A program made the position numbers and the translations under genes. Below the pieces are notes generated by a model. It saw only the letters and a list, made by a program, of their open reading frames with translations, did not search any database and was not told the DNA's origin. This document shows, piece after piece, positions 23,910-28,463 of a DNA stretch of 55,802 bases. The stretch is from Motilimonas sp. E26 (GTDB taxonomy: Bacteria; Pseudomonadota; Gammaproteobacteria; Enterobacterales; CBDFNC01), in NCBI RefSeq assembly GCF_021278025.1, contig NZ_JAIBHJ010000002.1:77141-132942 (forward strand), read 5' to 3'. Within the stretch, counting starts at the first letter, position 1. Each line of letters starts with the position of its first letter.

Positions 23910-24251
23910 AACTATCCCTTGCCAGTAATATGAATCCGCTAAGTATAGTTCGGCTTTTCTCTCCACTATTAGCAATCAATATTAATTTACTTAAGTTCTA
24001 CTTAAGGCAGTCACTGCCAAATGGAGTATGTTTACGGCAAAATTACGTTTTTTGGCTGACAACACCAAGCGAACAGGGACATATCCACCACACTTTTGTA
24101 AGCAAAACATACTGTTACTCTTGTCCAGTAATAAGATGAATGAGTCATGATGAGCCCAGCTTTTAAGCTAGAGTTTTACCTTATAAATAAAAAGCGCTAA
24201 CATGTCATAAAATGTCAAATACACATCAACTATAGTCAACAAGGAGATATC
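23910..24251. other. Gene-free interval before the vWA gene
   Basis: No credible ORF, hairpin or recurring repeat seen. It must hold the divergent promoters. The strong RBS of the vWA gene (AAGGAGATATC) ends it. Confidence 0.5.
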
Positions 24252-24923
24252 ATGTCACACGCCATTCCAGGGGTAGAGTTTGCTGACAACACCAACCAAA
24301 GAACCCCTTGCGTGCTAGTGCTGGATGCTTCAGGCTCGATGAATGGAGCTCCCATTGAACAGTTAAACCACGGCCTCCGCGTATTTGAAGAGCAGCTTAA
24401 AGGCGATGTATCCACCGCTATGCGCGTCCAAGTATTAGTGATCACCGTAGGCGGTCACGACGATGTGACTGTGGTGCAGCCATGGGTCGATGCCATTGAC
24501 TTTAAAGCGCCAGAAATAATAGCTTCGGGCCTAACGCCATTGGGCAAAGGCATGTCATACGCCCTTGAAGAAGTACAAAACCAAAAAGCCCAATACGACG
24601 CCAATGGTATCTCCAGCACCCGCCCTTGGATCATCATGATTTCTGATGGCTCGCCCAATGACTATGGCTGGGAAGAAGCCGCACAAGCTTGTCGTGAAGC
24701 TGAGCAAAACAAACGCGCGGTGATATTTCCCATCGGCACTGAAGGCGCAGATTTTGACGCTCTTGGTCAATTTTCCAATAAAACACCGAAAAAACTAAAG
24801 GGCCTTGCCTTTAACGAACTTTTTGTTTGGCTCAGCCGCAGCATGACCACGGTATCTTCAAGTGTACCGGGACAAAAAGTACAACTACCAAGTACCAATG
24901 AATGGGCCGAAGTCGAAATCTAA
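24252..24923 (+). CDS. TerY-like von Willebrand factor A protein
   Basis: A 223-residue cytoplasmic vWA protein. The metal-ion-dependent adhesion site is complete: VLDASGSMNG (DxSxS, about residues 25-34), the Thr in SGLTPLGKGMSYAL, and the Asp in IMISDGSPNDYGWEEAA. It is close to TerY-type proteins of tellurite-resistance-like gene sets, which act with a PP2C phosphatase and a serine/threonine kinase. A strong RBS (AAGGAGATATC) precedes it. The PP2C gene follows one base after the stop, which fits such a triad. The kinase gene is not present. Confidence 0.9.
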   Translation: MSHAIPGVEFADNTNQRTPCVLVLDASGSMNGAPIEQLNHGLRVFEEQLKGDVSTAMRVQVLVITVGGHDDVTVVQPWVDAIDFKAPEIIASGLTPLGKGMSYALEEVQNQKAQYDANGISSTRPWIIMISDGSPNDYGWEEAAQACREAEQNKRAVIFPIGTEGADFDALGQFSNKTPKKLKGLAFNELFVWLSRSMTTVSSSVPGQKVQLPSTNEWAEVEI

Positions 24924-24924
24924 C

Positions 24925-25968
24925 ATGACGCAAACAACCAGTAAGCGAGCGCAAACGGTACACTTTGTTGGCGCAGCAGTGCGCGGTCAGGGCCACCTTA
25001 AAACCAATCAACCATGCCAAGATGCTTGGCAAGTTGCCAGCGACGCTGGCGCTACTGTGGCCTGCGTTTGCGATGGTGCAGGCTCAGCTAAACACTCAGA
25101 TCAAGGCGCAAAAAAACTCAGCCAAATGGTCTGTGATAACTTGCTAAATTATGTATTGGCGCAACCCTCGGCGGTGATTGCAGAGCCAGAATTAGTCAAT
25201 CAACTGTTCGATACCCTCGCGCAATGTCGCAAAGCACTAGCCAATCAAGGTCCATTAAATGACTATCACGCGACGCTTTGTGGCTTAGTGCAACATCAAC
25301 AACAAAACTTAGTATTTCATCTCGGTGATGGCTTGATCATTGGTATTAACCCAGATGATTGGCAGGACTTTATTATCAGCGAGCCTGAGAATGGCGAGTT
25401 TGCCGAAACCACGTATTTCTTTACCTTAGACGATTGGCAGTCGCACCTGCGAGTCATGTGCGCGCCAGCGCGTTACAAAATTTGGTTTTTAATGAGTGAT
25501 GGCTGTGCCAGCTTTGCTGCGAAGACGCATCCCTATGCACCGGATTTAAAATTTTTAAAGCCGGTACATAGTTACTTAGCTAGGGTCTGTTGATCTTTGC
25601 TGGTTAATTTTTGTTCGAGATAAAAGCGTTTTGAGCAAGGCGAGCAGTGTGTAGCTTAGCATTCTAAGTAAATACTGCTCAACGATGGGCAAAACGCTTT
25701 TAGCCGAATCCGTAGGACAGCGTTTGTTGGGTATTTCTACTGCGTTATCGCTTTTTCGTGTAGCTAGCTACACCACAAAAGCGCTGCCTTGTATAAATAC
25801 CCAACAATTCGCTGCAAAAACAATCACGAAAGATCAACAGACCCTAGTGTTGATAACGAGCTTGCCAGCCAAGCACTAACGGCAACCTTAGACGATCCTC
25901 GCACATATTCAATTACCCAAGACGATAAAACCCTAGTGTGGTTGTATAACTCAAGTTTAGCTGTATGA
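24925..25968 (+). pseudogene. PP2C-type phosphatase gene split by a MITE
   Basis: The intact gene would encode 259 residues. Codons 1-219 are present (NQPCQDAW, CDGAGSAKHSDQGA and SDGCASF, the metal-binding motifs of PP2C). At 25584 a MITE interrupts the frame, which then adds RVC and stops at 25593. The missing 40 codons lie beyond the element (25848-25968, SVDNELASQ ... ITQDDKTLVWLY). Joining across the duplicated CTAG restores a perfect reading frame. The lost tail holds the final DDKT motif that normally provides a metal ligand, so the shortened protein is probably inactive. ATG follows the vWA stop by one base. Confidence 0.93.
25580..25847 (+). mobile_element. IS5-type MITE with CTAG target duplication
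   Basis: The element itself is 25584-25843 (260 bp), with perfect terminal inverted repeats GGTCTGTTGATCTTT / AAAGATCAACAGACC. It is flanked by CTAG on both sides (25580-25583, 25844-25847), a 4-bp target duplication. GG-starting ends and a YTAR-type target fit the IS5 subgroup. It carries no transposase. The interior has short inverted parts around AAAAGCGTTTT-like sequence. Insertion destroys the PP2C gene. Confidence 0.93.
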
Positions 25969-26036
25969 CTTTACGCGTTAATCTTTGCTTTAATGATGGC
26001 AAAAACAAACTTTTAAATACTCAAGATAAATCGTAA
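25965..26036 (+). pseudogene. Possible 5' remnant of a third TerY-P gene
   Basis: An ATG overlaps the original PP2C stop as ATGA and opens 23 codons (MTLRVNLCFNDGKNKLLNTQ, then DKS) before a TAA. In related gene sets a serine/threonine kinase gene follows here. The overlap suggests this was the start of that gene, now deleted. The peptide itself has no kinase motif, so this rests on position alone. Confidence 0.35.
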
Positions 26037-26417
26037 CTCATCTTGCGCTAAAAGAAGCGACTGTGTGACAAACTAAAACCACCAGCAAGGGCTAGAGGAA
26101 AGCTATTAGTTTCACCCTACCACAAAGCATATGACCTTATTTAAGATTTCAAGGCAAGAGCCTAGCCCTAGTCCAGCATCTTTTTGCTCATACTTACTAG
26201 CCCCATACTCAGGGCGAGATCTCACAATATAAATAAGGCTATTGTGTATATTTAACAGTCAAAATTAGCTATGAACTCTTGCTAGAAGTCTGCCCATTAC
26301 AAAACGTGCGAACAAAATATGTGCAATTCGATTACACATTTATCTGCACCTTTAGTTGCTGCACATTTTCTGTTCAAAGTGGAATCCCACCCTGGCCCCA
26401 TACTGGGTACTACTTTT
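26037..26417. other. Gene-free interval
   Basis: About 380 bases in which no coding frame, hairpin-terminator or recurring repeat was recognised. It lies where the third gene of the triad would be expected and may be eroded remains. Confidence 0.5.
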
Positions 26418-26759
26418 TCAATCTTGGGTAATAAACTTCCAAGCCTCCGATGCATTATCTTCAAGCTCTTTTGATTCCTTGGCAACAAATGGGATGGCTG
26501 AAGTCACCCAAACTGCAGCATCAACCATAAAGGGGATAGTTTTAAAGATAAATGCCGCAAACAGGACGATAATAAAAAAACGAGCAAATCCCTTTGCTTT
26601 AGTATCTTTAGTCTCTTGCAGCGACTTATTACAAGCGTCCCAACCCAACTTTGCAATAATCGCAACAACACCTAACTGTACAGCTAAAATAATGGATGTA
26701 ATAAAGAAAAAGATGACTAGAAAAAAAACACCTTCAACTAAACCTGCTAAAACGTCCAA
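26418..26759 (-). CDS. Small two-helix membrane protein, unknown
   Basis: A 113-residue protein with a long hydrophobic N-terminal region (LVEGVFFLVIFFFITSIILAVQLGVVAII, about 7-35, long enough for a re-entrant or tilted helix) and a second helix (FARFFIIVLFAAFIFKTIPFMV, about 58-79), followed by an acidic tail. GGAG lies seven bases before a TTG start codon, and I use that start. The family is not recognised and no operon partner is near. Confidence 0.65.
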   Translation of the reverse strand: MDVLAGLVEGVFFLVIFFFITSIILAVQLGVVAIIAKLGWDACNKSLQETKDTKAKGFARFFIIVLFAAFIFKTIPFMVDAAVWVTSAIPFVAKESKELEDNASEAWKFITQD

Positions 26760-26918
26760 ATGGCACTCCTAAAATCAAAATTCACAATCGAAACATAATG
26801 ACTCACTTATCACTTAAAAACCTTGATTTGGTTTATATCTTATTGAATTAGAGGAGATAAGCCATTGCTTCCCCCTCTGAGATATTTAGCTATGACAAGT
26901 CGCTTTAAAACAAGAGCC

Positions 26919-28463
26919 TTATGATGCCTTGCGTCTTATCTTAAGCACTATCCCTAACCCAGCGAAGAGCATGGCTAGCCCTAAAACTAAACTCATTATA
27001 ACGTCACGGGTGGTGCGCTCCATAAATGGCCGAGTAAAGTTCCATTTATGTAAAAAGCTAAACGAATAACCTTCGTAGCGTGCGTTGTCGGTGAGGCGGT
27101 CGACTAAGATCCCTGTCGCCGGATCAATAAATACCTTATCACCTAGCTTGCTATCATAATCCAGTTGCCACACAGGCAAGCGCTTGTTGCGAAAATCATA
27201 ATGTAAACCGAAGTGCGTAATAAGCTGAGTGCCTTGCAGCTGCTCAAGGGATAAACCCAACTGTTGCTCAGCCATTGCTATCACCAGTTTTTCATCGTTA
27301 AATGCCACTTGCTGGCCCGTTTTCGCCGAGATGTACAACGCCGGATCCGTAATGGCGATGCCGTCATAAATCGCGTCACGTTGCGGGGCTTGATGACCGT
27401 GATGACGGTGCTCATCTTTACCTGCCGTTTTCACCGCATCATGGACATGGCCGCCCTTACCCGCTTTGTTACTTGGTAAACTTAAGCGATAAATTAACTG
27501 CCCTTGCGGGTCGCGAATTAAACTTAAACCATTCAGCATAAAGCCAAGCTCTTTGCTAGACCATATTTGTTGGTTGAGTTCATCGTCTTGCCAAGTCAAT
27601 GGCTGCGCTAAACGCAAACCGTTGTGTTGGTCAGCGATGGCAGCATGTAACAGGTGATACAAGCCACTGCCACTAAAGCCCAGTAAAGGCAACCAGATAG
27701 CATACGCCACTAAATGATGCACATTACGCTGCCAAGTCGCCTTAGCGCTGCGCTTAATAGAAAGTACCAGCGCCATACCAGTTAGCGTGCTTAGCACCAG
27801 CACTAACATTAGTAATCCCACCAGCAATACTCGCGCATACTCAAAATCATCTAACCAATGCCAAGTGTGTAGAGTACGAAACCAGCCTTGCACTTGAATT
27901 TTGTAGTCATTAGTGAGCCCAGCTTGGGCGTTGGTTTCCGTGTGTACATAGATGGTGAGACCATCGGGCGAGTCAAACGCCACTTTATACACCGGCAGCA
28001 AGCGGTTAACCCAAGGGTAAGCATGATCAAACTGCGTTTGCAGGGTGACGGACTTGATCGCCGTATCAGCGAGGCCGGTATAATGACGCGCTAACCACTT
28101 AGCATGCTCAACATCATGATCGGCTAACTCACGATAATTACTCAAATCAAAGTAACGCCGCGGCGCCAATTCATCTTGCGTCACCTGTAGCACCGCCCCA
28201 TTGACCGAGGGCACAACCTTCACCAATAACGCTTGATTGATTTGGTGTTGTTTTAACACCGCTGGCACTTGGCTTACCAAACTGGCGGGTAATACGGCTT
28301 TAGGCGGAAAAAAAGCCGCCAACTTTGGCCCAGTCCAACTCATTAGCGGATGTAACAACCCCGACAACGCCCAGATAAATAGGCTAATAAACGCCAACCA
28401 AGCGAGACGGTTGTGCCATGTTTTAGCCGGCTTTAACAGCGGCTTTAAAAATTTAAACTGCAT
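26919..28463 (-). CDS. PepSY-associated inner-membrane protein
   Basis: A 514-residue protein with the PepSY_TM layout: TM1 (about 20-40), a periplasmic PepSY-type region, TM2 and TM3 (about 210-260), a second large periplasmic region and a C-terminal helix (VIMSLVLGLAMLFAGLGIVL). Such proteins accompany TonB receptors and are thought to reduce or release iron or siderophore in the periplasm. A His-rich loop (GGHVHDAVKTAGKDEHRHHG, about residues 345-365) suggests metal contact. It follows the TonB receptor gene after 93 bases on the same strand, which supports joint metal uptake. Confidence 0.87.
   Translation of the reverse strand: MQFKFLKPLLKPAKTWHNRLAWLAFISLFIWALSGLLHPLMSWTGPKLAAFFPPKAVLPASLVSQVPAVLKQHQINQALLVKVVPSVNGAVLQVTQDELAPRRYFDLSNYRELADHDVEHAKWLARHYTGLADTAIKSVTLQTQFDHAYPWVNRLLPVYKVAFDSPDGLTIYVHTETNAQAGLTNDYKIQVQGWFRTLHTWHWLDDFEYARVLLVGLLMLVLVLSTLTGMALVLSIKRSAKATWQRNVHHLVAYAIWLPLLGFSGSGLYHLLHAAIADQHNGLRLAQPLTWQDDELNQQIWSSKELGFMLNGLSLIRDPQGQLIYRLSLPSNKAGKGGHVHDAVKTAGKDEHRHHGHQAPQRDAIYDGIAITDPALYISAKTGQQVAFNDEKLVIAMAEQQLGLSLEQLQGTQLITHFGLHYDFRNKRLPVWQLDYDSKLGDKVFIDPATGILVDRLTDNARYEGYSFSFLHKWNFTRPFMERTTRDVIMSLVLGLAMLFAGLGIVLKIRRKAS

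Follow-up and report, generated by a model that had tools for sequence, protein, structure and literature searches.

In Motilimonas sp. E26, a marine bacterium whose source is given as a red alga in the accessible text of PMC13182010, a PP2C phosphatase gene is cut by a 262-bp MITE, whereas the corresponding site is empty in two sister species. The insertion is real, and it is an event of a well-known kind. We conclude with high confidence that a non-autonomous element with IS5-type (ISSod6-like) ends moved into the gene at codon 219/220, probably mobilized by the transposase of an IS, with duplication of the TA within a CTAG target and truncation of the phosphatase. The event would belong to a wider decay that affects the entire VWA-PP2C-kinase signalling module. 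The locus is thus a kinase-phosphatase module knocked out in nature and documented in detail. Nevertheless, the more interesting thread is the MITE family itself, which is widely spread and has a covarying fold.

The window, by which we mean the whole stretch of 55,802 nucleotides that was analysed, is part of contig 12 of a draft genome of 84 contigs and 4.63 Mb. It was compared with the sister genomes of Motilimonas cestriensis MKS20 and M. eburnea YH6 and with a fourth genome of the genus. According to PMC13182010, Motilimonas sp. 1_MG-2023 G1M02 and Spo1_1 belong to the same clade as E26. Between 24252 and 26036, a VWA gene is followed by the PP2C gene, split in two by the 262-bp repeat, and then by what is left of a kinase gene, 23 codons in length (Table 1). 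A search of 24000-27000 for known RNA families gave 0 matches at the gathering threshold.

Table 1. Annotated features of the interrupted locus, in window coordinates.
Feature	Position	Strand	Support
VWA-domain gene, first in module, intact	24252..24923	+	PF00092, 36.1 bits
PP2C phosphatase gene, 5' part, open until a stop within the MITE	24925..25593	+	PF13672, 126.4 bits
TA target duplication, left copy	25581..25582	.	copy survey
MITE of 262 bp with internal hairpins and perfect terminal repeats of 16 bp	25583..25844	.	
TA target duplication, right copy	25845..25846	.	copy survey
PP2C gene, severed 3' part with DDKTL and last strand, no stop until the natural TGA	25847..25968	+	
Kinase gene remnant, 23 codons, first ~15 homologous to sister-species kinase	25965..26036	+	
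Other DNA, ~920 bp, where M. cestriensis and M. eburnea have ~3.0 kb	26011..26931	.	

Interruption of the phosphatase gene

M. cestriensis and M. eburnea each carry one phosphatase gene of this kind, open over 259 codons and lacking the element at the orthologous site, with collinear flanks around it; the same phosphatase search found no such gene in the fourth genome of the genus. The intact orthologues and empty sites agree with the original prediction that a MITE had cut a PP2C gene, for which a search of relatives for an unoccupied site had been proposed as a check. The part upstream of the insertion is 97.7% identical to its M. cestriensis counterpart over 221 residues and matches PP2C_2 (PF13672), for which the full-length sister protein scores 127.8 bits over profile positions 1-208 of 209. 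The severed tail, translated alone, runs without a stop or frameshift and matches the C-terminus of the sister-species proteins, as had been supposed. The truncated product consists of 219 of the 259 native residues followed by RVC and a stop (the frame ends ...YLARVC*). Comparison with the 259-residue sister proteins confirms the proposed loss of 40 residues and gain of RVC, and a complete PP2C domain with its last motif is absent from the window's own product, which ends those 40 residues short.

In a model of the full-length protein (mean pLDDT 86.6), the missing residues comprise one helix, the last strand (247-254) and the motif DDKTL. We take this motif to hold the last metal-binding aspartate of PP2C enzymes, the support here being similarity of fold: a Foldseek search with the full-length model gave, among the matches listed, PP2C-fold proteins at TM ~0.5-0.6. 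Against solved structures, a single-protein sequence search gave no match at 0.1, and a profile search gave weak matches only, covering positions 39-146 or less. DDKTL is invariant in five aligned PP2C homologues. The phosphatase of a second triad of the same genes elsewhere in this genome (discussed below) reads DDKSL instead, and the motif is thus not absolutely fixed. Because the tail carrying DDKTL and the last beta-strand is gone, the truncated product has likely lost its phosphatase activity.

It might be argued that the shortened protein is still made and has a function, such as binding to the second triad as an inactive partner. Consistent with such a role, the VWA gene differs from that of M. 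cestriensis by 0 non-synonymous and 17 synonymous codons among 223, and the upstream PP2C part by 4 non-synonymous and 11 synonymous differences in 219 codons. However, few changes are expected either way at such divergence, and the loss of the last strand, together with a motif shared by all five homologues, makes a working protein quite unlikely.

An assembly error that placed a repeat inside the gene would be a still less probable source of the interruption, and we give it very little weight. The element is repetitive, and at least four of its copies break contigs in this 84-contig draft, but the sequence on each side of the insertion runs collinear with that of M. cestriensis and M. eburnea, and the TA is correctly placed.

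This genome holds 16 full or near-full copies of the MITE, the present one included, as well as fragments, and M. eburnea holds at least 40 near-full copies; copies within Motilimonas are 262 to 304 bp long. For copy L008 (C11:29563), too, M. cestriensis has a clean empty site, which bears out the earlier suggestion that the family was active in this lineage. Three copies have flanks common to this genome and M. cestriensis (L002/L125, L006/L128 and L010/L131), and the site of L016 is partly shared. No clean empty site was found for L004, L009, L012 or L014, and the flank search returned no M. cestriensis counterpart for L003, L005, L011 or L013, while the flank of L007 is itself a repeat. Taken together, the shared and private sites indicate that the family was active both before and after the species split. 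Since the element is absent from the PP2C site of M. cestriensis, the insertion is most simply placed after that split, and to this extent the description of the event as recent holds. Nothing younger can be read from the data, because two of the shared copies (L125 and L128) are 98-99% identical to the present copy, as similar to it as private ones are, so that similarity alone gives no insertion date; the third shared copy is ~85% identical.

Two observations concern the surroundings of other copies. Open frames of 351 and 553 aa start inside copies L003 and L009 and extend into the flanks, and MITE copies may thus supply new gene starts. The right flanks of L004 and L007 contain repeats of ~49 bp and ~100 bp that occur at many places here and in M. 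cestriensis, the ~49-bp repeat being present in M. eburnea also.

Target site and candidate mobilizing element

Terminal inverted repeats are present where they had been predicted, at slightly different limits: the element spans 25583-25844 with perfect 16-bp ends, GGGTCTGTTGATCTTT, rather than 25584-25843 with 15-bp ends. To define the target, we used 88 copies (16 from this genome, 40 from M. eburnea, 5 from M. cestriensis and 27 from other genera), leaving aside fragments and copy L127 of the fourth genome; three pairs among the 88 represent the same site in two species, and the copies are thus not all independent. TA is found at both ends in 78 of the 88, and the 10 copies without TA on one or both sides were excluded from the count of flanking 4-mers. 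Among the 78, 23 read CTAG/CTAG, which is uninformative, 54 have unequal 4-mers and a single copy has equal 4-mers other than CTAG. The target duplication is therefore TA within a CTAG target. The element has the termini GGGTCTG...CAGACCC, 76 of the 78 TA-flanked copies having both the first G and the last C, and CTAG appears on both sides here because the target is C-TA-G while the element starts with G and finishes with C.

This result overturns the original prediction of an exact CTAG duplication, and with it the expectation of YTAR duplications at other copies. A 4-bp duplication, as in the YTAR subgroup of IS5, would account for the CTAG on either side of this element and for copy L011, which is flanked by CTAA/CTAA, but 54 of the 55 informative copies have unequal 4-mers and keep only the TA. 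Moreover, for the IS427 group of the IS5 family, the rows in the accessible part of PMC3281130 give 2-bp repeats in 10 of 11 cases and 4 bp in one. We consider a 4-bp duplication to have almost no chance of being correct. The 2-bp reading carries one cost of its own: both sister species have CCAG where the window has CTAG, and one earlier silent C-to-T change, creating the TA target, must be assumed.

A candidate for the source of the transposase exists in M. cestriensis, in which two full copies of an 884-bp IS are present. Both read CTA/TAG; the IS427-type 2-bp TA duplication is established from the MITE copies. The DDE transposase of this IS, of 253 aa, matches the IS5-family model NF033580 at 267 bits (cut-off 110), as well as PF01609 and PF13340, and shares 74.7% identity with a protein whose annotation is ISSod6 family. 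The IS is ISSod6-like and probably of the IS427 group, sharing with that type its length, transposase size, NF033580 match and left end GGGTCTGTTGATCTTT, although it differs from ISSod6 itself in that the transposases are only ~75% identical. The original prediction had proposed searching for a full-length IS5-family element with the same ends as the MITE. This proved right for the left end, which is identical to the first 20 bp of the MITE, and not for the right end (GGGCGTG), which differs and matches over 14 bp only.

In the E26 draft, 12 places at contig ends carry the first bases of this IS and 10 places carry its other end, as is expected when identical copies collapse in a short-read assembly. 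No intact transposase was found in this draft, which yielded one 25-residue fragment, and local IS copies are thus deduced from the contig ends. None was found in M. eburnea at E<=0.001, where collapsed repeats could hide one. The base before TA is C at all 12 IS left ends here and in all 14 TA-flanked MITE copies here, versus 12 of 37 in M. eburnea. This contrast favors mobilization by this IS in E26 and by another one in M. eburnea. The match in target preference is circumstantial evidence, on which we consider it probable that the IS with the same left end supplied, in trans, the transposase that cut and joined the MITE. The fixed ends and target rule should help in finding both further copies and the mobilizing IS.

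Distribution across the order did not support a link. Among 295 genomes at E<=1e-10, the MITE occurs in 7 of 27 with the transposase and 65 of 268 without it (p = 0.82), a weak test in that this genome itself scores as transposase-negative, and one that collapsed repeats weaken further. At E<=0.001 the two had seemed to go together (17 of 27 against 76 of 268, p = 0.0007), but this signal vanished at the stricter threshold and was rejected; the weak matches are presumably terminal repeats of IS copies. As a separate observation, the IS directly abuts the end of another element at the ends of contigs C4 and C31 (L047 and L050, junction CCCTAGGG). This applies to 2 of its 12 visible left ends and would fit a preference for the edges of elements as targets.

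A widespread MITE family with a covarying fold

The family is found in 93 of 295 genomes of the order at E<=0.001, matches that pass only this threshold including short ones, and in 72 of 295 at E<=1e-10. In a plasmid collection, 12 records from Vibrio, Pseudoalteromonas and Catenovulum match it. Near-full-length relatives in seven other genera (L237-L263) have terminal repeats that vary between copies and mostly match within one copy. These 27 were chosen from the best, near-full-length matches among the 93 genomes, so that the uniform length of 262-265 bp in 26 of them is partly a product of selection. No description of the family was found in the open-access literature searched or in the accessible portion of the review PMC10969869.

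Folded as DNA, positions 25581-25846 reach -74.1 kcal/mol (z -12.96). An alignment of 28 copies, 25 from the seven other genera (one near-duplicate and one copy with an insertion being left out of the 27) and three from Motilimonas, gives a consensus fold of 78 pairs, of which 35 have both partners changed in one copy or more. Two-sided changes fill 180 cells, compared with 49.6 in shuffles and 11-30 when partners are slid, in a test limited by the relatedness of the aligned copies, which also served to derive the structure.

We also asked whether the fold is conserved at the level of RNA, and this proposal was rejected: when the count is limited to the 73 pairs that the two strands' folds have in common, 27 cells are G-T mispairs and 28 are A-C, with no sign of selection on one transcript strand. 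When each strand is judged by its own fold, G-T exceeds A-C by 55 to 28 for the plus strand and by 98 to 29 for the minus strand, an excess that folding with G-U allowed produces alone. With pairs chosen by their Watson-Crick share the counts are 47 and 37, and the minus strand folds better in 19 of the 28 copies. We read the lack of strand preference on the common pairs as favoring a cause at the level of DNA, for example a DNA hairpin or correction of one arm by the other.

We tentatively propose, at somewhat less than even confidence, that in this widespread MITE family paired changes in the two arms maintain the DNA fold over the whole length of the element. If this is true, the kept fold would suggest that a DNA hairpin is used for transposition or in some role for the host; alternatively, the two arms may correct each other during replication. 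To our knowledge, MITE movement requires the ends only. The breadth of this family and its covarying fold make it testable why some MITEs nevertheless keep a long structured interior.

Proposed decay of the module and comparison with known systems

The damage at this locus exceeds what the original prediction described, as the kinase and the next gene are lost besides the end of the PP2C gene. In the sister species, VWA and PP2C are followed by a kinase of 452 or 456 aa (PF00069 in M. cestriensis) and then by a protein of 551 or 558 aa. Window positions 25846-26010 are 95.8% identical to M. cestriensis, and homology stops at 26010 and restarts only at 26932, such that ~3.0 kb containing nearly the whole kinase gene and the gene that follows was exchanged for unrelated sequence of ~920 bp. 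Between the MITE and the breakpoint there are 167 bp, which indicates two separate lesions, either of which may have come first. For the same reason, deletion of the kinase by the MITE was considered and is unsupported. The replacement DNA has no match in the plasmid collection; M. cestriensis gives one partial match of 187 bp, and M. eburnea gives two short matches. Within it, 26197-26404 is a stretch of ~200 bp between the direct repeats CTAGCCCCATACT and CTGGCCCCATACT, perhaps another small mobile repeat. It is the stretch that matches M. cestriensis over 187 bp, with 85% identity, while in M. eburnea each of its ends matches a different place.

The sister-species kinase has a close counterpart in this genome only in the second triad, on contig 34, another match being weak (25%). 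This triad of VWA, PP2C and kinase genes is complete and open in frame. It lies in a block of ~10.9 kb (L042, G000:C34, 2719-13648) that also contains a transposase gene and a copy of the MITE, where M. cestriensis has ~150 bp, and the block stands downstream of what we take to be a tilS-like gene. Its VWA and PP2C proteins are 83% and 73% identical to those of Colwellia sp. D2M02, versus 74% and 56% to the native ones. The kinase percentages do not discriminate (53% over 934 residues for the Colwellia kinase and 52% over 327 for the native one), and the Colwellia kinase matches along the whole length. From these comparisons, it is a fair reading that the old module was replaced by an acquired one. 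The insertion may form part of the decay of the whole signalling module, perhaps tolerated because a second triad is present.

It is also possible that the kinase was lost first, by deletion or replacement, leaving a partnerless phosphatase as a free target in which the MITE was neutral and not the inactivating event. The disappearance of the kinase and the next gene, the presence of the second triad and the severed tail that still lacks a stop or frameshift are all as this order of events would have it. However, one genome cannot date the order of two lesions as separate as these, and we give the kinase-first order a little under an even chance.

Adjacent VWA, PP2C and kinase genes were recognized by Pfam in M. 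cestriensis, whose VWA protein is identical to that of the window, and in the second triad; for M. eburnea, Colwellia sp. D2M02 and Providencia vermicola, recognition was by sequence similarity together with gene order. At the window locus the set is incomplete, with PP2C cut and the kinase missing. The module would resemble yegL-yegK(pphC)-yegI of E. coli. The accessible parts of PMC11090510 and PMC4978471 describe the TerY-P triad as VWA, PP2C and Ser/Thr kinase genes in one operon, tied to stress and phage defence. The same three domains are found in one operon in the sister species and in the second triad. With respect to the zinc ribbon and OB fold of TerY-P, the kinase gave no such Pfam match, and its sequence has a single CPHC motif. 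PADLOC named no match for the TerY-P triad, returning weak kinase and phosphatase matches only, and no defence role is thus claimed.

Inactivation of bacterial genes by MITEs has precedents in MITEAba12, which interrupts hns (PMC6382973, accessible text), and in Chunjie, which has inactivated genes in Geobacter and others according to the accessible portion of a review (PMC10969869). As in those cases, the element described here is non-coding, has IS-like ends and a target duplication, and has broken a gene in one lineage. Unlike MITEAba12 and Chunjie, it is 262 bp long and targets TA in CTAG, and the host module that it interrupts is also without its kinase.
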